Shown: positions 14,055 to 22,512 of the stretch, in pieces
Layout of the letters: each line of letters begins with the position of its first letter
How positions within the stretch are numbered: position 1 is the stretch's first letter
NCBI GenBank assembly: GCA_027014115.1
Contig: JALWEJ010000058.1
Span: 1 to 34,936, forward strand
DNA: 34,936 nt
Direction of reading: 5' to 3'
Source: Desulfurellales bacterium
GTDB taxonomy: Bacteria > Campylobacterota_A > Desulfurellia > Desulfurellales > Hippeaceae
The notes under the pieces: model-generated
The model's database searches: none
What the model was told of the DNA's origin: nothing
Seen by the model: only the letters and a program-made list of their open reading frames with translations
Position numbers and translations under genes: made by a program

Positions 14055-14780
14055 TTAGAGCTCTATAATATCATTCAGTATATTATTGTTTTTGAAATAC
14101 TTTTTAAACACCGATGTCTTTATACTGTGTTTTAATGCATCAATATGCCGCATACCGTGTGTATCGGAACCGAGAAAATCTATTAATCCTTCCTTAAAAA
14201 GCCTTTTTGCCATTTTTTCCACAGGTTTTGAATAGTATCCACTAAAAGAATTGATATTCAGTTGAAGCTTTACACCCTTATTTTTTAAATCAAGATACTT
14301 ATCAAAAGAATTATGCATATAAAAATAGCGCTCCGGATGAGCTAAAACAGGTTTATAGCCCTTTGACTGCATAACAAAAACAGCCTCATCAAGAAATAAA
14401 GGAGCAGTTGAAAACGATAGTTCAAACAGAAGATAGTCATCTCCAAAACTCAAAACATCTCTGCTTTCTACAAGTTCCATAAAATGCTCATCAAGATAAT
14501 ACTCAGCTGCAACATACAGCCTTACATTTAATCCTTCATTTTTAATTTTTTGCTTAAATTTTTCAAACAGACTCAATATATGCTCTTTTGAGTTATCGTA
14601 TTTATGGTGCATAACATGCGGAGTTATAACAAATCTTTCATAGCCGAATCCATTTAGCAAACGCAAAAGTTCTAAAGATTCTTCAAATTTATCACAACCA
14701 TCGTCAATACCTGGCAGAAGATGTGAATGTATATCCGTTTTAATCTTCGGAGTAGTAGCCAGCAGACCTATAACCGCCAT
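14055..14780 (-). CDS. PHP-family protein-tyrosine phosphatase (CpsB/YwqE type)
   Basis: About 241 residues. The metal-binding PHP motif DIHSHLLPGIDDG is near the N-terminus, followed by ITPHVMHHKYD, VLAHPERY and the C-terminal GSDTHGMR, the standard ligand set. Known relatives dephosphorylate the tyrosine tail of the BY-kinase that controls polysaccharide export. That kinase is encoded just upstream and overlaps this gene. I chose ATG 14780, which has GGAGG ten bases upstream inside the kinase's tail codons. A longer frame to 14825 is less likely, and the catalytic domain itself starts only at the end of the kinase gene. Confidence 0.88.
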   Translation of the reverse strand: MAVIGLLATTPKIKTDIHSHLLPGIDDGCDKFEESLELLRLLNGFGYERFVITPHVMHHKYDNSKEHILSLFEKFKQKIKNEGLNVRLYVAAEYYLDEHFMELVESRDVLSFGDDYLLFELSFSTAPLFLDEAVFVMQSKGYKPVLAHPERYFYMHNSFDKYLDLKNKGVKLQLNINSFSGYYSKPVEKMAKRLFKEGLIDFLGSDTHGMRHIDALKHSIKTSVFKKYFKNNNILNDIIEL

Positions 14781-17112
14781 ATTTGCCGTAGCCTCCGTAT
14801 CCGTAACCAGCACTCTCTTTTGCACCGTTTAAAACTATACCGACACTCTTTATTGAAAATTCACTAACATATTTTTGGAAATATTTTAAAGATTCTTTTT
14901 TTGTTACCATCACCCTTGTAACAAGCAAAGATAAATCAGCCTTCTGCATGAGTATCATGGCATCGGTAACTATTCCGACAGGTGGCGTATCTATTATTAT
15001 GTAGTCAAAACGCTTCTTCAAATCATCAAGTACTTCGTCAACCTTTTTTGAGGATATCATCTCTGACGGGTTAGGCGGTTTTGGTCCTGCAGGTATGAGA
15101 TAAAATCCTTCATCTTCAATTTCCACAAGCACATCATCAATAGAGTTTATACCGGACAAAAGTGTGCTCATACCCGAATCAACAGGCACATTTCCAAGCT
15201 CAACATGGAGTTTTGGAAGTCTCAAGTCCATATCCAACAAAACAACCTTTTTGTGGGCTCTTGCAAACATAACCGCAATCATTCTGCTTATGGTTGTTTT
15301 GCCTTCTCCGGGAACGGTTGAAGATACTACAATAATGTTTGTGTCTTTACTGGATGACATAAACTGAATATTTGTTCTCAGCGTTCTAAATGCCTCCATA
15401 AAAACAAATTTCTGCTTTTCGCTTTTTAAAAACGGAATAGAACCGTAAAAAGGAATAGAGGTTATGCGCTCGATATCTTCGGGTGTTTCTATAGTGTTTT
15501 TTAAAAATTCAATCAAAAACGCATAAAAAACACCGAGTATCATTCCGGTAATGATGCTGACCAACAAAATCAATCTTCTTTTTGGTTTGACAGGAACAGC
15601 CGTTCCGTTTTGAGTAAGAAGGGCGGGCTGATCAATAATTCTTGCTGTGGTTGTTCTGGATGCTTCCATTATGGCTGATTCTGTTCTTTTTTGAAGCAGA
15701 AATGAATATATTTTTTCATTAACCTTGTAATTTGTTGTCAAATTAGCAAGTTTCTGCTCCTGTTTAGGCATTCTCTTAATTGATTCTTTGTAATCTGAGA
15801 TGATTTTCTGCAAAGAGTGTTTCCTGCTGTTTATGTTTACAAGATCGTTTTTAACCAAAAAAATTATACTTTTTCTGAGATTGTTGATTTCTTGAGTTAG
15901 TCTAACAACATCAGGATGGAGCTTTGTAAAACTTACAAGCAGCGATTTTCTTTTAAGTAAAGCCTCTTGTAGTTTTTCTATACTCTTCACTAAAGCAGGG
16001 TCTGTTATTTGAACAGCCCCCAATGTTATACCTTCGACATCTTCATTGTTTTTTATATAGTAGAGCAAATTTCTTAATATATTTTCTTCTATTATCAACT
16101 CCTGAAGCTTGCTTTGATATTCACTTAAATTTGTTGCTGTTAAAGCGGCTTTTTCAGATAAATTAACCAAAACATTCTTAGATTTATATTCTTCAAGTTT
16201 CCTTCCTGAAGCCTGAAGAACCTTTCTAATCTCTTCAAGCTGTGAATCTATAAATTTTATGGCATTTCTTGCATTTTTGGTTTTATACTCAAGCTCTTGA
16301 GCCAAATAAGCTTTAATAACAGCATTTGTAATATCAACGGCTCTTCTTTTTACGGTATCATCGAATGTTACCTTTAAGATAGTGGATTTTCTGTTTAACC
16401 TTTCAACATTGATATGTTTTTTTATAAAATCAAACATCAAGTTATTGGGAATAATGGAAAAAAAATACTGTTTGTATTCAAGATTTTGAAGTCGTTCAAC
16501 CTTAATTGAAAACCAAGGCGTAGTAATCACTTGCCCATACGGCAGAATATCATCAAAAATTATATATGGTTTTGTTGTTTTTCTGAGAATTCTCTTTAGT
16601 ATACCCGGTTTTGTGTTAAGAATAAGTCTGTAATGCTTTTTATCTTTAGGAATTAAAATAAATTTGTGTCCCATTATATCTTTATCTATATTTTGAGAAC
16701 TCACAACAAAAGGAACATTTCTGTATAATTCATGCATTCTGTAATGCTTTTTTATAAAATACCTTGTTCCGATGTTTATGTATTGAAGGGATTTTTTTGC
16801 AACATATGTTGATTTGATAATTTCTATTTCATTCTCTACACTGCCTGAGGCTGTCATGGCTGTTGGAATAATGGCAGACAGATCATCGGCCTGATCTAAG
16901 ACACCCCTACTTTGAGCAGGCAACTCTATGGTAGCCAAAGCCCTGTATACACTTGGTTGAAAATAGAGCCATACAAGAGTCGTTACAGCAAAAACAACAA
17001 CAAAAAGAATTATTTCAACATTGTGACGCCAAACGACATCAAACAGCTCTCTTAAATCTATTTCATCTTCTTCGAGTATTCTTTCCTTTTCAAGAAGTTC
17101 CTGATTATTCAT
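14740..17112 (-). CDS. Polysaccharide co-polymerase / BY-type tyrosine autokinase (Wzc-like)
   Basis: 790 residues. N-terminal Wzz domain with membrane helix one (about 31-52), a long coiled-coil periplasmic region (about 250-480, LEEIRKVLQASGRKLEEY and similar), helix two (about 510-532) and a cytoplasmic kinase. Kinase motifs: Walker A GEGKTT at 602-607, Walker A' LLDMD at 625-629, Walker B IIIDTPP around D708. The tail has seven tyrosines in the last 21 residues (770 to 787), the expected autophosphorylation cluster. Controls chain length and export of a surface polysaccharide with the Wza-like protein encoded two bases upstream and the phosphatase downstream. Confidence 0.95.
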   Translation of the reverse strand: MNNQELLEKERILEEDEIDLRELFDVVWRHNVEIILFVVVFAVTTLVWLYFQPSVYRALATIELPAQSRGVLDQADDLSAIIPTAMTASGSVENEIEIIKSTYVAKKSLQYINIGTRYFIKKHYRMHELYRNVPFVVSSQNIDKDIMGHKFILIPKDKKHYRLILNTKPGILKRILRKTTKPYIIFDDILPYGQVITTPWFSIKVERLQNLEYKQYFFSIIPNNLMFDFIKKHINVERLNRKSTILKVTFDDTVKRRAVDITNAVIKAYLAQELEYKTKNARNAIKFIDSQLEEIRKVLQASGRKLEEYKSKNVLVNLSEKAALTATNLSEYQSKLQELIIEENILRNLLYYIKNNEDVEGITLGAVQITDPALVKSIEKLQEALLKRKSLLVSFTKLHPDVVRLTQEINNLRKSIIFLVKNDLVNINSRKHSLQKIISDYKESIKRMPKQEQKLANLTTNYKVNEKIYSFLLQKRTESAIMEASRTTTARIIDQPALLTQNGTAVPVKPKRRLILLVSIITGMILGVFYAFLIEFLKNTIETPEDIERITSIPFYGSIPFLKSEKQKFVFMEAFRTLRTNIQFMSSSKDTNIIVVSSTVPGEGKTTISRMIAVMFARAHKKVVLLDMDLRLPKLHVELGNVPVDSGMSTLLSGINSIDDVLVEIEDEGFYLIPAGPKPPNPSEMISSKKVDEVLDDLKKRFDYIIIDTPPVGIVTDAMILMQKADLSLLVTRVMVTKKESLKYFQKYVSEFSIKSVGIVLNGAKESAGYGYGGYGKYGGYRSAGYYSED

Positions 17113-17114
17113 AT

Positions 17115-17921
17115 TTATTTAGTTAAAACCTTTATAGATACGAATGGTTCCAGAAGTTTTGTAAGGAAATCAAATGATGGGGTTATCTCTTTTAAGTCTC
17201 TATTAAAGCCCTTGATTTTTCTTGGCTCTACATAAACTATATCGTTTGGATGTAAAAACAGAGAACTTATACCTGCCGCCGATATATGGGTTAAATCAAC
17301 AATAATCATTTTCGGATTTCTTAAATTGCCCCTAATAATTTTTATGTGTTTTCTGTCTGCATCGTCTGTTATATCACCACATTTGGCAATTGCCTCCATT
17401 AGTGTCATAACACCGTTATTTATCTGCACAACGCCCGGTTTTCTAACCTCTCCCACAACAAACACCCTGTGATTTACAATATCAACAGAAACATAAGGTT
17501 TTCTTAGATATTTTGCGTAAGCTTTGGTTAGTTTGTCCGCCGCTTCAAACTGCGTTAATCCCTGAACCCTTATCCAGCCAACCAACGGAAGCTGCACTTT
17601 GCCGTCCGGTGATACCAAAATACTCGTTGACTGATTTGTGTTCAAATTGCTTGAACCAATGGAGCTTGTCAATATGGAAGATAATTGACCGCCCTGCGTG
17701 CCTGTCTGATTATAAACTGTTATATTTAATCTATCGAAAGGCATAATTCGGTTTTCAAAAACCACCTCTTTTTTGGTTTCATGATTGTCTTGTGTGACAA
17801 CAACAGGACCTTTAACTTGAAAAAGCCTATAATCATCTTTTGCGCAGGATGAAAGAAAAATAATTACTGCAAACAACAGTATAAAATATAAATTTTTTTT
17901 ATTAACGGAAAAATTCTTCAT
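17115..17921 (-). CDS. Polysaccharide export outer-membrane lipoprotein (Wza-like, Poly_export/SLBB)
   Basis: 268 residues. Lipoprotein signal with lipobox FLSSC, Cys26. The Poly_export domain follows (IMPFDRLNITVYNQ, then LVSPDGKVQLPLVGWIRVQG) with an SLBB-type domain after it (VFVVGEVRKPGVVQINNG, LHPNDIVYVEP). Shorter than E. coli Wza. Forms the outer-membrane channel for polysaccharide, partnered with the Wzc-like kinase two bases downstream. The Shine-Dalgarno (AGGGG) is far from the ATG at 17921, but the lipoprotein signal supports this start. Confidence 0.93.
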   Translation of the reverse strand: MKNFSVNKKNLYFILLFAVIIFLSSCAKDDYRLFQVKGPVVVTQDNHETKKEVVFENRIMPFDRLNITVYNQTGTQGGQLSSILTSSIGSSNLNTNQSTSILVSPDGKVQLPLVGWIRVQGLTQFEAADKLTKAYAKYLRKPYVSVDIVNHRVFVVGEVRKPGVVQINNGVMTLMEAIAKCGDITDDADRKHIKIIRGNLRNPKMIIVDLTHISAAGISSLFLHPNDIVYVEPRKIKGFNRDLKEITPSFDFLTKLLEPFVSIKVLTK

Positions 17922-17957
17922 AAATTCTAAATTAGCACCCCTTTTGTAATCTGTAAA

Positions 17958-17987
17958 AATATAATCATCTTTTGATTAAAAAGTCAA
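17958..17987 (-). promoter_or_regulatory. Promoter for the wza-wzc-phosphatase operon
   Basis: Minus strand TTGACT (17987-17982), 18-base spacer, TATATT (17963-17958), in the 88-base gap between the last gene of the CsgG cluster and the wza-like gene. It would separate polysaccharide export from the CsgG operon, although I see no terminator between them, so readthrough is possible. Confidence 0.55.
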
Positions 17988-18009
17988 TATAAAATAAGCA
18001 GAAACTCAC

Positions 18010-18663
18010 CTATCTGGCAAATTTTACGGATTTGGACATTTTATAAAGTCCCGAAACATTATAATGCTCACTGTACTGTTCGTTGTCCTCAGAACTTGTA
18101 GATATGGTTACCTCAACTCCTGTTTTTATCGCTCCAAACGGTGTGGAATCTTCGCCGTATGATGCTCCGTTTGATGACATATTGTAGGACAAAGACGGCT
18201 TATCCCCAAGCTCAACCTCTGTATCTGTATGAAACACAAGAGAATAGGTATTAAACCCACTTCCTGTCGCTATAACAAAAAAACCACCATTATTGCAATC
18301 ATAGTTATAGACACCCATCCCCACTCTTTCAACTCCTGTTATTATTCCTGTTGAATTGTCGTTGTTGGCCTGATAGTTAATATCTTGATTTACATAAAGC
18401 ATATCTGTGGAATTATCGGATAAGATAACATTAAAATAATCCTCAAGCTTTATTTTTCCGGATATTGAATGAATCTCGTTTGAGTAAAACATATCTTTCT
18501 TGCTTTTATTATCATCTGAGCCACTTGTTTTGCTTGATACATAAATCTTACTTTCATCGAAGCTACCTGTGCTTTCCACACTTGTAGTACTAACTATACT
18601 TGTAGAAAAAGCCGGCTGTATTATAAAACATATAACAACCCAAACAAGCAATACATATCTCAT
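18010..18663 (-). CDS. Secreted Ser/Asn-rich protein, putative substrate or partner of the CsgG channel
   Basis: 217 residues, no family recognised. Signal peptide about 1-20 (cleavage near AFS). The mature part is rich in Ser, Asn, Thr, Asp and Tyr with one Cys (C123). It has two copies of a short motif, YSNEIHSISGKI (60-71) and YSEHYNVSGLY (197-207). A similar element is at the C-terminus of the proteins at 20928-21587 and, weaker, 20201-20851 and 21679-22512. Its ATG overlaps the csgG stop by four bases (ATGA), with AGGA upstream. Coupling to csgG and the shared motif suggest a minor subunit or cell-surface anchor; inference only. Confidence 0.75.
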   Translation of the reverse strand: MRYVLLVWVVICFIIQPAFSTSIVSTTSVESTGSFDESKIYVSSKTSGSDDNKSKKDMFYSNEIHSISGKIKLEDYFNVILSDNSTDMLYVNQDINYQANNDNSTGIITGVERVGMGVYNYDCNNGGFFVIATGSGFNTYSLVFHTDTEVELGDKPSLSYNMSSNGASYGEDSTPFGAIKTGVEVTISTSSEDNEQYSEHYNVSGLYKMSKSVKFAR

Positions 18664-19493
18664 TTTTTCCTAATATGTGGTATTAGAAATAGATTTTTAT
18701 TGTTCTTTATCATATCAACTACAGCATTCGCGGTTGCTATCTCAAAAGCATAATCGGCAGGCAGCTGCCATGCCACACCGGCTTCTGACGATACCAAAAA
18801 CTTTTCACCACCTGCTGTGACAAATCTGAATATATCTGCTCCAATGAGTGTTCCAGACACCCAGCTCTCCTTCAGAGTACTCCATATAATTTCAGAGGTG
18901 TTCATATCCACAAGCCTAAGCTCCACTCCAACCCTTGCAACAGCTTTTCTAAAATGGACTCCAATTGCATCTATATTCAGACCGCCACCGCCACTGTACC
19001 TATCAACATGATAATAAACAACATTACCAGTTACAAGATAATTGGCACCGGTAATTCCACCTTGAGGTCCGTTTCTTTGTATGATACCGATCTGCCTTAC
19101 ACCATTTTTTGTATTTCTGAAATCATGGCTTAACTGATATTCTTTAGATATGGTTATTATATTTTCCTTGGATCTATCTACAATCATCCTGGGGCCAAAT
19201 GCCTTATAAAGTATATGGTACAGCATTGTCTGAGTAGCCTGCGTTATAACCCTTGAATACCTGCCGCGTTCGGAATCTTTATATTGTCCCGTTTTATCGT
19301 AAAAACTACCTACTGTTAATCTTATATTTCTTCTCATAAAGCGTTTGTATGCACCAAGTTCTTTCATAATACCCAAATTTACATCTGCAACACTTTTTAT
19401 ATCGGCTTTTCTAACTTTTGTAAAAGTACAACTCGACATAAAAAACAAAAAAACAACTAAAGCAAAAAAAACAGAATATTTTTTAAACATCAT
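18660..19493 (-). CDS. CsgG-family outer-membrane secretion channel lipoprotein
   Basis: 277 residues, the same length as E. coli CsgG. Lipoprotein signal with lipobox FMSSC, Cys22. Recognisable family segments are YDKTGQYKDS (65-74), TQATQTMLYHIL (84-95), GGLNIDAIGVHFRKAVARVG (170-189), ELRLVDMNTSEIIWS (191-205) and GADIFRFV (218-225), collinear with CsgG as I remember it. CsgG forms a nonameric beta-barrel pore that exports curli subunits. The region matching the pore constriction differs: S74, R78 and Y79 where I recall Tyr51, Asn55 and Phe56. Four-base overlaps on both sides tie it to small secreted proteins. A Caulobacter HfaB-like (holdfast anchor) role is an alternative. Confidence 0.9.
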   Translation of the reverse strand: MMFKKYSVFFALVVFLFFMSSCTFTKVRKADIKSVADVNLGIMKELGAYKRFMRRNIRLTVGSFYDKTGQYKDSERGRYSRVITQATQTMLYHILYKAFGPRMIVDRSKENIITISKEYQLSHDFRNTKNGVRQIGIIQRNGPQGGITGANYLVTGNVVYYHVDRYSGGGGLNIDAIGVHFRKAVARVGVELRLVDMNTSEIIWSTLKESWVSGTLIGADIFRFVTAGGEKFLVSSEAGVAWQLPADYAFEIATANAVVDMIKNNKNLFLIPHIRKK

Positions 19494-19837
19494 TTAAACT
19501 CCCATTCCCAGCTAACTCTTCCCCCGTCTTGTATTTTTGGCTTTGCCGCATCAGATTGAACACCGTCATAAGCAACATCTCCACCCGTACTGCTGACATC
19601 ATTTCCTGTTATATAAACATTCTTTTCACTGTGACTATCGTAATTATAGTAATAATAGCTTCCATATACCGGACGATCTTTGTGGTCAACAGCAGTTGCA
19701 ACCTCCATCAAATCACCAAGGCTTGCGCTTGCGCCAGCTGCAAACATCCTAGGGGCCCAGTGCATATTATCAACAGCAAAAGAGGTAAAAGGTAAAAATA
19801 CAAATCCCAAAGACAAAATAGCAAATTTTATCTTCAT
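19490..19837 (-). CDS. Small secreted protein upstream of csgG, unknown family
   Basis: 115 residues with a clear signal peptide (about 1-21, cleavage at SFA before VDN). The mature 94 residues hold a tyrosine-rich stretch (GSYYYYNYDS, about 59-68) and end in a strongly aromatic tail, RVSWEWEFK. It has no cysteines and no similarity to CsgE or CsgF that I can see. The ATG has GGGAGG six bases upstream and overlaps the previous stop by four bases; its own stop overlaps csgG by four bases. The tight coupling suggests an accessory factor acting with the channel, in the place CsgE/CsgF occupy in curli loci. Confidence 0.75.
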   Translation of the reverse strand: MKIKFAILSLGFVFLPFTSFAVDNMHWAPRMFAAGASASLGDLMEVATAVDHKDRPVYGSYYYYNYDSHSEKNVYITGNDVSSTGGDVAYDGVQSDAAKPKIQDGGRVSWEWEFK

Positions 19838-20286
19838 CTGTCTCCTCCCTGATTTTTATCGTATATTTCTACATCCAAATTATTTTTGTTTTCATTTTTA
19901 AAGTCATTATTATTTTGAACAGGTACAACATTACCTGTAGAGTTAGGCAAAAAAATCAAACCACTGCCTTTTAGTTGATTGTTGATCTCTTTACTCACAT
20001 CTATGTTGTTGCTTACATCAACCGGATAATATCCACTACCATAATTATTAGTATCTTCAACATCAGAACTTACATTATCAGCATAGATTGCACTATTGTT
20101 GTCATATGAAACAAGAGTCGTATTATTATCGGTGATATTGTCAAAAGCAAAAGGGGCCTGCGCAAAAACAAGCACAAAAGCCCCAACTAAAACAGTGATT
20201 CTACTTACCGATATTAAATTTACCCGTATAGTTGTAAGTTCCGCTGGTTTTTTGTTTAAATTTATAATACTCCTCCGATCCTGCAA
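19834..20286 (-). CDS. Asn-rich secreted protein, unknown family, start uncertain
   Basis: Up to 150 residues. A hydrophobic stretch (ITVLVGAFVLVFAQAPFAF) looks like a signal peptide with cleavage near PFA. The mature part is very rich in Asn and Asp (for example DNITDNNTTL, KNENKNNLD). The only conventional start is TTG at 20286, which overlaps the upstream gene by 86 bases and puts about 30 residues before the signal core. No ATG, GTG or TTG lies at a better place, and an AUC just after the upstream TAG would be a rare start. The stop overlaps the next gene by four bases. Function unknown; part of the CsgG operon by position. Confidence 0.6.
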   Translation of the reverse strand: MQDRRSIINLNKKPAELTTIRVNLISVSRITVLVGAFVLVFAQAPFAFDNITDNNTTLVSYDNNSAIYADNVSSDVEDTNNYGSGYYPVDVSNNIDVSKEINNQLKGSGLIFLPNSTGNVVPVQNNNDFKNENKNNLDVEIYDKNQGGDR

Positions 20287-20851
20287 CTTTTACAGCCTGA
20301 GGACTATAAGGACAACTGGCTGCAGCAGTTGTATTGGTATACTTATAGCTGTAAGCATTGGCGCCTATAGAAAGCTGACCGTTACCTTGCGCCTGATTAA
20401 TATTATAACTAACATTAGGATCAGATGAAGAAGAACCTACAGTCTTAAGGTTGCTGTTATAACTATTCCTAACTCCCAAACCTACAGCAGCATTAATATA
20501 CTCACCCTGACTGCTATTATCACTATCGGCATAAGAACCCTGTGTACCGATTTTCTCTGCTGCATTCACATATCCTCTTTCACTGTTAAAACCGAGATTC
20601 ATTGACGTGTTTATTGCCGAACCTATCTTTGCAAAACTGTTCTGGAATTGAGCATTACCTCTCACACCATATACATTTACATCGTACGCACTATTTCCGC
20701 TAACATAAAGACCGTCAACCTCTACATCGCCACTTGAATTATCAAGATTGGAAGTTATAGAAATACCCATACTGTTTGCACATATTGGCAAAGTCAAAGC
20801 CAAAACAGCACTTGCGCAAGCTATCGAAAGTTTTCTAACCTTCCTTCTCAT
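20201..20851 (-). CDS. Secreted repeat protein, putative fibre subunit of the CsgG system
   Basis: 216 residues from ATG 20851, which has AGGAGG five bases upstream; a GTG six bases earlier overlaps that site and is rejected. Signal peptide about 1-25 (cleavage at ICA). The mature protein is rich in Ser, Asn, Gly, Ala and Tyr. It contains three related segments, NSFAKIG (71-77), YVNAAEKIG (94-102) and YINAAVGLG (118-126), whose glycines are 25 and 24 residues apart, close to the 22-24 residue period of curlins. Later comes SYNINQAQGNGQ (148-159), faintly curlin-like. It ends in YNYTGKFNIGK. No known family recognised. Confidence 0.8.
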   Translation of the reverse strand: MRRKVRKLSIACASAVLALTLPICANSMGISITSNLDNSSGDVEVDGLYVSGNSAYDVNVYGVRGNAQFQNSFAKIGSAINTSMNLGFNSERGYVNAAEKIGTQGSYADSDNSSQGEYINAAVGLGVRNSYNSNLKTVGSSSSDPNVSYNINQAQGNGQLSIGANAYSYKYTNTTAAASCPYSPQAVKVAGSEEYYKFKQKTSGTYNYTGKFNIGK

Positions 20852-20860
20852 ATACACCTC

Positions 20861-20912
20861 CTACATTCGCCTTTCATTTTACAGTAAATGTTACTGCAAA
20901 AAACGAATGTAG
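20861..20912 (-). promoter_or_regulatory. Intergenic stem-loop abutting the ribosome binding site of the 216-residue protein gene
   Basis: Perfect outer inverted repeat CTACATTCG (20861-20869) and CGAATGTAG (20904-20912). It encloses an inner hairpin with CAGTAA (20882-20887) and TTACTG (20891-20896), which extends through a G-U pair and A-U pairs in the minus-strand RNA. There is no U-tract after it, so it is not a terminator. One arm ends against the AGGAGG of the downstream gene (20862-20857). It could tune translation or act as an mRNA processing or stabilising site between two subunit genes. Confidence 0.6.
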
Positions 20913-20927
20913 CATAATGCATTCCAA

Positions 20928-21587
20928 CTAATTCATTTCAGCTGTATTATATATGGAAAATTTACCTGTCACATGTATATGCCTACTGTAGGTTTGAGAT
21001 AGATTGCCACTATCTGTGGATATGCTTAAAGATGTTCCGGTTTGTAAATCATTATCCAATGTATTTGAATTTGCATAGATTGCATATGATGCAGATTGCA
21101 TTGGGCCGGGTGTTTCTGTCATGCTCCCACCAACATAACCGTCTGACAGTTTTGCTTCATATCCTGATGCAGACCCCATATTCAACCTTGTTATACTTTG
21201 TCCGCACGGACCTGCCGAACAACATGAACTTGCACCCATTTTATCACTTACATTTAAATAACCGAGGGCAGATTCAGGGTTAAGTGCCTTATATCCTGCA
21301 AATGAAGAGTGATAAGCAGAACCTGTTGAATCTACTGCAGTTATATTATGTATTCTTGTATAACCAACACCATCTGTTGATGCATTAAATGAATTTTCAA
21401 TTTTTCCTTTAGTATTAACATTTGGTGGCTGGTATATATGTGAATAATCTTGACTCACGGCTGCACCGCCATACGATGTTATATCAATTGTTGAATAGAA
21501 GGGAGTCATAGTAACGTTGTCTGAAGCAAAAGAGTATATGCTTAAAAACAGAAAAATAGTAACCACAAAAAAAGTCATTTTTTTCAC
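20928..21587 (-). CDS. Secreted Ser/Gly/Tyr-rich protein, putative fibre subunit of the CsgG system
   Basis: 219 residues. GTG start at 21587 with GAGG six bases upstream. Signal peptide about 1-21 (SFA, then SDN). It shares with the protein at 20201-20851 an SSFAG element (94-98) followed by GYLNVSDKMGA (109-119), and ends with YSRHIHVTGKF (200-210) like the protein at 18010-18663. A cysteine cluster, SCCSAGPC (C122, C123, C128), could form disulphides outside the cell. No known family recognised. It is the first gene after the terminator of the abundant-looking gene at 21679. Confidence 0.8.
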   Translation of the reverse strand: MKKMTFFVVTIFLFLSIYSFASDNVTMTPFYSTIDITSYGGAAVSQDYSHIYQPPNVNTKGKIENSFNASTDGVGYTRIHNITAVDSTGSAYHSSFAGYKALNPESALGYLNVSDKMGASSCCSAGPCGQSITRLNMGSASGYEAKLSDGYVGGSMTETPGPMQSASYAIYANSNTLDNDLQTGTSLSISTDSGNLSQTYSRHIHVTGKFSIYNTAEMN

Positions 21588-21622
21588 GACTCACCTCTCG
21601 TTTTTAAAAAATAAAAGATACT

Positions 21623-21651
21623 AAAAAGGCGAACCCTTTCGGATTCGCCTT
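21623..21651 (-). terminator. Rho-independent terminator after the 277-residue secreted protein gene
   Basis: In minus-strand RNA the stem AAGGCGAAUCC pairs with GGGUUCGCCUU (11 pairs with one U-G) around a GAAA tetraloop and runs into five U residues. It begins 27 bases after the stop codon and 36 bases before the next start. An identical copy is at 34838-34866. Confidence 0.9.
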
Positions 21652-21721
21652 AATAGAAGTTTAAGTTAAAATTTAAGACTAAGGAACTTTGTCAATGTTT
21701 GTCTTAAGAGCACTTGCTGCA
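21623..21721 (-). repeat. 99-base direct repeat, copy 1 (gene 3' end plus terminator)
   Basis: Identical over all 99 bases to 34838-34936, where the window ends. It covers the last 14 codons, stop, 3' untranslated region and terminator of the secreted protein gene. The match stops exactly at the U-tract side of the terminator, where flanks diverge. Confidence 0.97.
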
Positions 21722-22512
21722 GGAATAACAGAGTTGTATTTCATAGTCTTTGTGAATTTTACAAGACCCTTAGCAGATGTGTGCTGTGCATAAGACATAG
21801 TTGTTCCGCCCTGCTCTACAATATTTGCTGCCATACCTGCTGCTACACTACCAACAGCATTGTCGTTCTGAGATACTACACCAAGACCTCTGGCATCAAC
21901 TGAGTAGTTCAAGCTTGGAATAATTGTTTTCATATTGCCAACAGCTGTTACATCAGCATTTGTTGTTACAGCAGCATACTGAACATCAAATTTTGACCCT
22001 GCTGCTACATCGCCATTAGCTTTAGGAGTCTTAGCTGTAGTTGTACCACAGAATGTTGCATAATCTGTGCTCTGAGCAGGCTGACATCTCTGATACTGAA
22101 TCTTCTCTGTTCCTGTGAATGTACCTGCATTCAATCCCTCATATAGAGTGTTGAATGTAATCTTGTTTGATGTTTTTACATTTGGAGTAGCAGCATTAGC
22201 TTTTCCAACAGCTGCAAAAGCAGATACAACATGTGTCTGTCCGTTTGTTGCTGCAAAGTCTTTTGTATAAGTTATGCCTGTCTTTCCTTCTCCACCTTCT
22301 GCTGAGTTATTATCCAATGTCAACTTGTAATCCTCTGTCTCTGAGTATGTAGCATCATTTGTAGCCTCAACAAAAACATCAGCGTTTGCTGTGATGTTAG
22401 CTGTTTCATTGTCAGGATCCTGAGCTGTCAAAGCTGAGCTTGTGCTAGCCAAACCAAATACAAATGTAGCCACTACTGCTGATAAACCTACCTTTTTAAG
22501 AACTTTATTCAT
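21679..22512 (-). CDS. Secreted Ala/Thr/Asn-rich protein, putative major subunit of the CsgG system
   Basis: 277 residues, no family recognised. Signal peptide about 1-27 (STSSA then LTA). The mature protein is rich in Ala, Thr, Asn, Val and Gly, with two cysteines (C143, C155) that could close a small loop. It carries SAFAAVG (97-103), similar to SFAKIG of the protein at 20201-20851, and YAQHTSAKGLVKF (241-253), similar to the Y-S-x-H...G element ending its neighbours. It has a strong Shine-Dalgarno (GGGAGG), a long leader, two candidate promoters and its own strong terminator, all fitting high expression. Its 3' end is duplicated at the window end. It lacks a type IV pilin leader. Confidence 0.8.
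   Translation of the reverse strand: MNKVLKKVGLSAVVATFVFGLASTSSALTAQDPDNETANITANADVFVEATNDATYSETEDYKLTLDNNSAEGGEGKTGITYTKDFAATNGQTHVVSAFAAVGKANAATPNVKTSNKITFNTLYEGLNAGTFTGTEKIQYQRCQPAQSTDYATFCGTTTAKTPKANGDVAAGSKFDVQYAAVTTNADVTAVGNMKTIIPSLNYSVDARGLGVVSQNDNAVGSVAAGMAANIVEQGGTTMSYAQHTSAKGLVKFTKTMKYNSVIPAASALKTNIDKVP

Follow-up and report, generated by a model that had tools for sequence, protein, structure and literature searches.

A CsgG-family pore gene among genes for non-curlin secreted proteins in a Desulfurellales bacterium

CsgG is known as the curli pore and, in the form of HfaB, as that of the holdfast anchor, and CsgG pores also serve as engineered nanopores. The contig JALWEJ010000058.1 of a Desulfurellales bacterium (GenBank GCA_027014115.1, a genome of 1.72 Mb and 99% complete) was analysed over positions 1-34936, a stretch of 34,936 nucleotides referred to below as the window. 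On its minus strand lies a csgG gene (18660-19493) embedded in an operon of small secreted proteins, with no recognizable partner of the curli system. We interpret this arrangement as a CsgG-type locus dedicated to the export of substrates other than curlins, at a probability of about 0.6. The novelty would lie in CsgG-family export joined to secreted proteins that are neither curlins nor Hfa proteins.

By sequence and modelled fold the 277-residue product of 18660-19493 is a genuine CsgG, and it is the sole CsgG of its genome. It matches Pfam PF03783 with 69.3 bits (E 3.7e-19, curated cut-off 20.8), scores 82.9 bits against a profile of 84 curli-locus CsgG sequences, and retrieves the E. coli CsgG structures in the PDB by phmmer over residues 57-246 (E 3.7e-10). 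The lipobox cysteine C22 is invariant across 30 aligned CsgG sequences, its lipidation being a prediction. A first-pass annotation of the same DNA had recognized a CsgG-like product from its length, lipobox and collinear segments, with which PF03783, phmmer and C22 agree, and the structural check that it had proposed gave the same answer: the 25 best PDB matches of the AlphaFold model in Foldseek are all curli CsgG structures, headed by 6l7a (E 2.1e-15). The model has a pLDDT of 72 and was built from an input alignment that already contained CsgG homologues, and its global agreement with 6l7a is modest (TM-score 0.46/0.51, rmsd ~10). The polysaccharide-export lipoprotein PelC was also returned, at a lower score (4e-6). 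The curli constriction-loop region, D-x-T-G-Q-Y-K...[FY]-S...[VI]-T-Q, is kept and reads DKTGQYKDSERGRYS in the window protein. In the gap-free phmmer alignment, the positions that we take to be Y51, N55 and F56 of mature E. coli CsgG, in the numbering of the CsgG structure papers, are occupied by S74, R78 and Y79.

The genes of the locus are transcribed from the minus strand in the following order, signal peptides having been judged by eye.

21679..22512, minus strand: secreted 277-residue protein, founding member of a new family, from searches of its own and related genomes
20928..21587, minus strand: secreted 219-residue protein with a GTG start, a probable family member by Smith-Waterman alignment
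20201..20857, minus strand: secreted protein of 216-218 residues starting at GTG 20857 or ATG 20851, 57% S/N/G/T/Y/Q, a possible distant family member
19834..20286, minus strand: Asn-rich protein with a hydrophobic signal-like stretch, an open reading frame with an insecure start and unsupported family membership
19490..19837, minus strand: secreted 115-residue protein directly upstream of csgG, from its open reading frame and 4-base overlap
18660..19493, minus strand: CsgG-family outer-membrane lipoprotein pore, 277 residues, from PF03783, PDB CsgG, trees and Foldseek
18010..18663, minus strand: secreted 217-residue protein, Ser/Asn/Gly/Thr-rich, in the same family as 21679-22512 by family HMM and Smith-Waterman, overlapping csgG by 4 bases

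Every open reading frame of the first-pass annotation was found in the sequence. Overlaps of 4 bases occur at three junctions (19834-19837, 19490-19493 and 18660-18663), tying csgG to secreted-protein genes on both its sides. The claim that the four genes from 20286 to 18010 are joined in this way is sound for the three junctions, but the start of the first gene is insecure: the sole canonical start that would yield a complete signal peptide is TTG at 20286, which lies 86 bases inside the upstream gene. Over 20201-20286 the frame of the Asn-rich protein thus runs into its neighbour, with no good start near the signal-like stretch, which could reflect an uncommon start codon or an error in the sequence. 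The gene 21679-22512 looks like a separate unit, being flanked by a sigma-70-like site (22686-22659) and a terminator-like hairpin (21651-21626), such promoter-like sites being no commoner than in shuffled sequence. No riboswitch or other RNA family was found in its leader above the Rfam thresholds.

Neither CsgE nor CsgF nor the curlin repeat PF07012 has a match anywhere in the genome at a threshold as lax as E<=10, extending genome-wide what had been noticed at first pass, and the CsgE and CsgF profiles built in this analysis found no match in the window. In comparison, csgF is present in 83/83 curli-type CsgG loci and csgE in 82/83 (the exception is a short contig); this set comprises 80 loci fetched by alignment of the window CsgG and three curli CsgG sequences, plus those three, and is biased to curli, as the search patterns derive partly from curli CsgG. 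According to Dueholm et al., the CsgE and CsgF models are curli-specific, and additional CsgG matches are probably paralogues belonging to a larger family (PMC3521004).

The six small proteins have no Pfam or NCBIfam family at a meaningful score, consistent with the expectation that they would match neither known curli subunits nor an unrelated known family. Ser, Asn, Gly, Thr, Tyr and Gln account for 37-57% of the mature small proteins, versus 29% on average and at most 38% in 31 other window genes. Five of the six exceed every other window gene tested, as their description as low-complexity, Ser/Asn/Gly/Thr/Tyr-rich proteins had implied, but the 115-residue protein falls within the normal range.

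Sequence comparison firmly places the 18010 and 21679 proteins in one new family of shared ancestry: an HMM of five core members gives the 18010 protein 24.2 bits, a score reached by 0/1000 shuffles, and the two align by Smith-Waterman with z 8.6. The 21679 protein has three paralogues in its own genome, at 58% identity (contig C34), 35% and 34% (contigs C98 and C42), and the family has one homologue in the only other genome of the genus compared (G001), with no further match by profile in 242 genomes. The 20928 protein is probably a member, aligning with the 18010 protein at p 0.003 and z 4.0 while undetected by the family profile, and the 20201 protein is possibly a distant one (p 0.045 against the 18010 protein; 8/1000 shuffles equally good by profile). 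The 115-residue and Asn-rich proteins have no reliable relation to the family by profile or pairwise comparison, and family motif blocks sought in the four remaining small proteins yielded single blocks that were non-significant once corrected for multiple testing. The family profile found nothing significant in the PDB. The proposal of a locus with its own substrate family holds only in part: membership is firm for two proteins, probable for one, possible for one and unsupported for two, and members also occur away from csgG.

At L029:4522-6909 and L030:6133-8481 the gene of a family member comes immediately after, and ~50-60 bases downstream of, that of a chemotaxis receptor (MCP), and this pair is kept in both genomes of the genus, away from any csgG. 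At L028:4048-6291 a 294-residue member follows, by 15 bases, the gene of a NosD-like secreted protein with a right-handed beta-helix (Beta_helix 82 bits).

Downstream of 18010, after a gap of 88 bases, the strand continues with three polysaccharide genes.

17115..17921, minus strand: Wza-like polysaccharide export lipoprotein (Poly_export 65.6 bits, SLBB_2 51.8 bits)
14740..17112, minus strand: Wzc-like chain-length determinant and tyrosine autokinase (Wzz, GNVR, AAA_31; TIGR01007 170 bits, cut-off 108)
14055..14825, minus strand: CpsB/CapC-type polysaccharide-associated phosphatase (PF19567 153.8 bits)

As listed, the kinase gene overlaps the phosphatase open reading frame over 14740-14825, and the kinase carries a Tyr/Gly-rich C-terminal tail, GYGYGGYGKYGGYRSAGYYSED, of the sort seen in BY-kinases that have a tail for autophosphorylation. 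In the block 14055-22512, CsgG has no match and Wza lacks an orthologue among the other 24 members of the phylum sample (25 genomes in total, source genome included), with weak partial matches to Wza in four. The order of the flank fba-(mcp)-pgi-ybgC is kept in several relatives, and beside it the small proteins, csgG and Wza/Wzc/CpsB are absent in 7/7 relatives examined. A foreign base composition of the block is ruled out by its ordinary GC content (0.33-0.41 vs 0.36 for the window), so that a recent acquisition is not demonstrated; loss elsewhere is a possible cause of its absence in relatives.

A pore gene set among secreted-protein genes beside polysaccharide genes recalls the Caulobacter holdfast anchor, in which HfaB resembles CsgG, the surface location of HfaA and HfaD needs HfaB, and the Hfa complex acts together with HfsDAB, a set of proteins for polysaccharide secretion (PMC6707917). 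In HfaB-type plasmid loci from Vibrio, Variovorax, Pacificitalea and Loktanella (L181, L182, L185, L186) the pore gene likewise adjoins secreted-protein genes without csgE/F, preceding both of them in Vibrio and being flanked by one on each side in Variovorax, Pacificitalea and Loktanella. A similar, holdfast-type layout is seen in the window (19490 - csgG - 18010, no csgE/F). On Vibrio alginolyticus plasmids (L181:3818-5750) the HfaB-like CsgG (139 bits to the HfaB model) is accompanied by two secreted proteins, one with ATAVGNN-type repeats, csgE and csgF being unannotated there, and on a Variovorax paradoxus plasmid (L182:2370-6687) the HfaB-like pore (195 bits) has a small Ser/Asn-rich protein on one side and on the other a very large one annotated as S-layer family.

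In the mechanism that we propose, the Sec system would move the small proteins into the periplasm, and CsgG, as an oligomeric outer-membrane pore, would let them cross unfolded, with the 115-residue protein taking the part of CsgF or HfaA at the pore. Once outside, the proteins rich in Ser/Asn/Gly/Thr/Tyr might assemble on the cell surface and there retain or strengthen a polysaccharide that the neighbouring Wza/Wzc machine exports, so that the system would work in the manner of the Caulobacter anchor (HfaABD with HfsDAB) rather than of curli. We infer, as the most economical reading, that the CsgG pore exports the proteins encoded in the same operon as itself. The curli-like export system with its own substrates proposed at first pass is upheld in its genuine CsgG without CsgE, CsgF or curlin and in its operon with unfamiliar secreted proteins, but only in part as to the substrate family; a fibre, matrix or holdfast would be its product. 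The Wza/Wzc/CpsB neighbours, which that annotation had left unused, favour a polysaccharide-linked surface structure. From the HfaB-like layout and the adjacent Wza/Wzc genes, a polysaccharide-linked anchor or matrix appears more likely than a free curli-like fibre.

Several observations weigh against this export reading. In the sister genome of the genus (G001, 97% complete) a family member occurs in the absence of CsgG, so membership does not imply CsgG-dependent export; three paralogues in the source genome itself lie away from csgG, and there is no general tie between the family and CsgG. The export claim is therefore best confined to the proteins encoded by the neighbours of csgG. The AlphaFold prediction for the 21679 protein has a mean pLDDT of 38, too poor for a structure search and giving no confident substrate fold, and the 115-residue protein shows no homology to HfaA-position proteins (pairwise versus shuffles) or to CsgF. 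The window shows no evident glycosyltransferase gene. A search for a second genome with the locus found none, so the conserved synteny of the small genes with csgG, which the first-pass annotation had named as support, is not borne out.

The congeneric family member without CsgG and the unlinked paralogues would also suit a different explanation, in which the small proteins take another route and CsgG is the pore for something else, such as Wza-linked polysaccharide or peptide traffic, a role for which the PelC match could be cited. We regard this as unlikely, though the strongest of the alternatives, since csgG is bound by 4-base overlaps to a secreted-protein gene at either end, the CsgG and HfaB pores already known export products of their own locus (PMC6707917, PMC3521004), and the PelC similarity is far below that to CsgG.

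The position of the pore bears on the two remaining alternatives. In the main tree, comprising the window CsgG, curli CsgG, HfaB-type and other CsgG-family proteins, the curli (100/99), HfaB (98/96) and other-CsgG (98/93) clades are recovered and the window CsgG falls in none of them. It forms a deep and very long branch of its own, which makes its exact place unsafe; in an earlier tree without HfaB it stood beside the curli clade. A single-query search of viral contigs and 84,980 species genomes gave no close relative.

A highly diverged curli system, with CsgF, CsgE and curlins hidden among the small proteins and changed past recognition, would account for the shared constriction-loop region and for the NCBIfam scores (curli CsgG 40.7 bits > HfaB 24.9). 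The 115-residue gene moreover occupies the csgF place of curli operons, which is also the place of a small secreted protein in several HfaB-type loci. Its product was rejected as a CsgF, however: the best HMMER alignment, pairing LMEVATAVDHKDRP with the CsgF stretch LLnnAqaqndhkdp, scores -0.3 bits, is non-significant and gives no CsgF homology by profile. Together with the genome-wide failure to find CsgE, CsgF or curlin and the exclusion of the pore from the curli clade, this makes a disguised curli system improbable. Least probable of all is a true but diverged HfaABD anchor, with the 115-residue, CsgG and 18010 proteins as HfaA, HfaB and HfaD: its layout is that of the plasmid loci and Wza/Wzc parallel HfsDAB, but the pore is outside the HfaB clade, is nearer to curli CsgG by profile and reaches 25 bits to the HfaB model (NCBIfam cut-off 300) versus 68-195 for the pores of HfaB-type loci, and the six small proteins match HfaA-/HfaD-position proteins, taken from plasmids and not from Caulobacter, at chance level (best p 0.02 among 36 comparisons).

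If the locus is an export system of the kind proposed here, a CsgG that handles unrelated substrates in the absence of CsgE and CsgF would reveal the minimal needs of the pore for protein export, and would inform what renders a substrate acceptable. The new secreted family supplies candidate extracellular fibre or matrix proteins that are testable. A further step, to a third and independent branch of CsgG-dependent export that is neither curli nor holdfast anchor, with a genus-restricted surface family, its own pore partner and Wza/Wzc cooperation, is a tentative idea to which we give somewhat less than even odds.

Among known systems, curli (type VIII; CsgG, CsgF, CsgE, CsgA/CsgB) share with the window a pore with the lipobox cysteine and the DxTGQY constriction-loop region, small Ser/Asn/Gly/Tyr-rich secreted proteins, and a small gene directly upstream of csgG. 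The window locus differs in having no CsgE, CsgF or curlin repeat, a CsgG outside the curli clade and putative substrates of an unfamiliar family. The CsgG-CsgF pairs of phages (pelagimyophages, Melnitz), for which a role in lysis has been proposed (PMC9004378), likewise have CsgG without curlins, but they are phage-borne and retain csgF, whereas the operon of the window is chromosomal and encodes secreted proteins. Within the same bacterial family, two genomes (L002, L004) encode another CsgG-family protein, alike in its PF03783 match but without the DxTGQY constriction loop or a secreted-protein operon, and placed in the separate clade (98/93). The HfaA-HfaB-HfaD system resembles the locus in its CsgG-family pore among secreted-protein genes, in the absence of CsgE/CsgF and in the pairing of the Caulobacter pore with a polysaccharide secretion machine, to which the Wza/Wzc neighbours correspond; it is distinguished from the window by the secreted proteins of the latter, up to six in number and without detectable homology, and by a CsgG that lies outside the HfaB clade.

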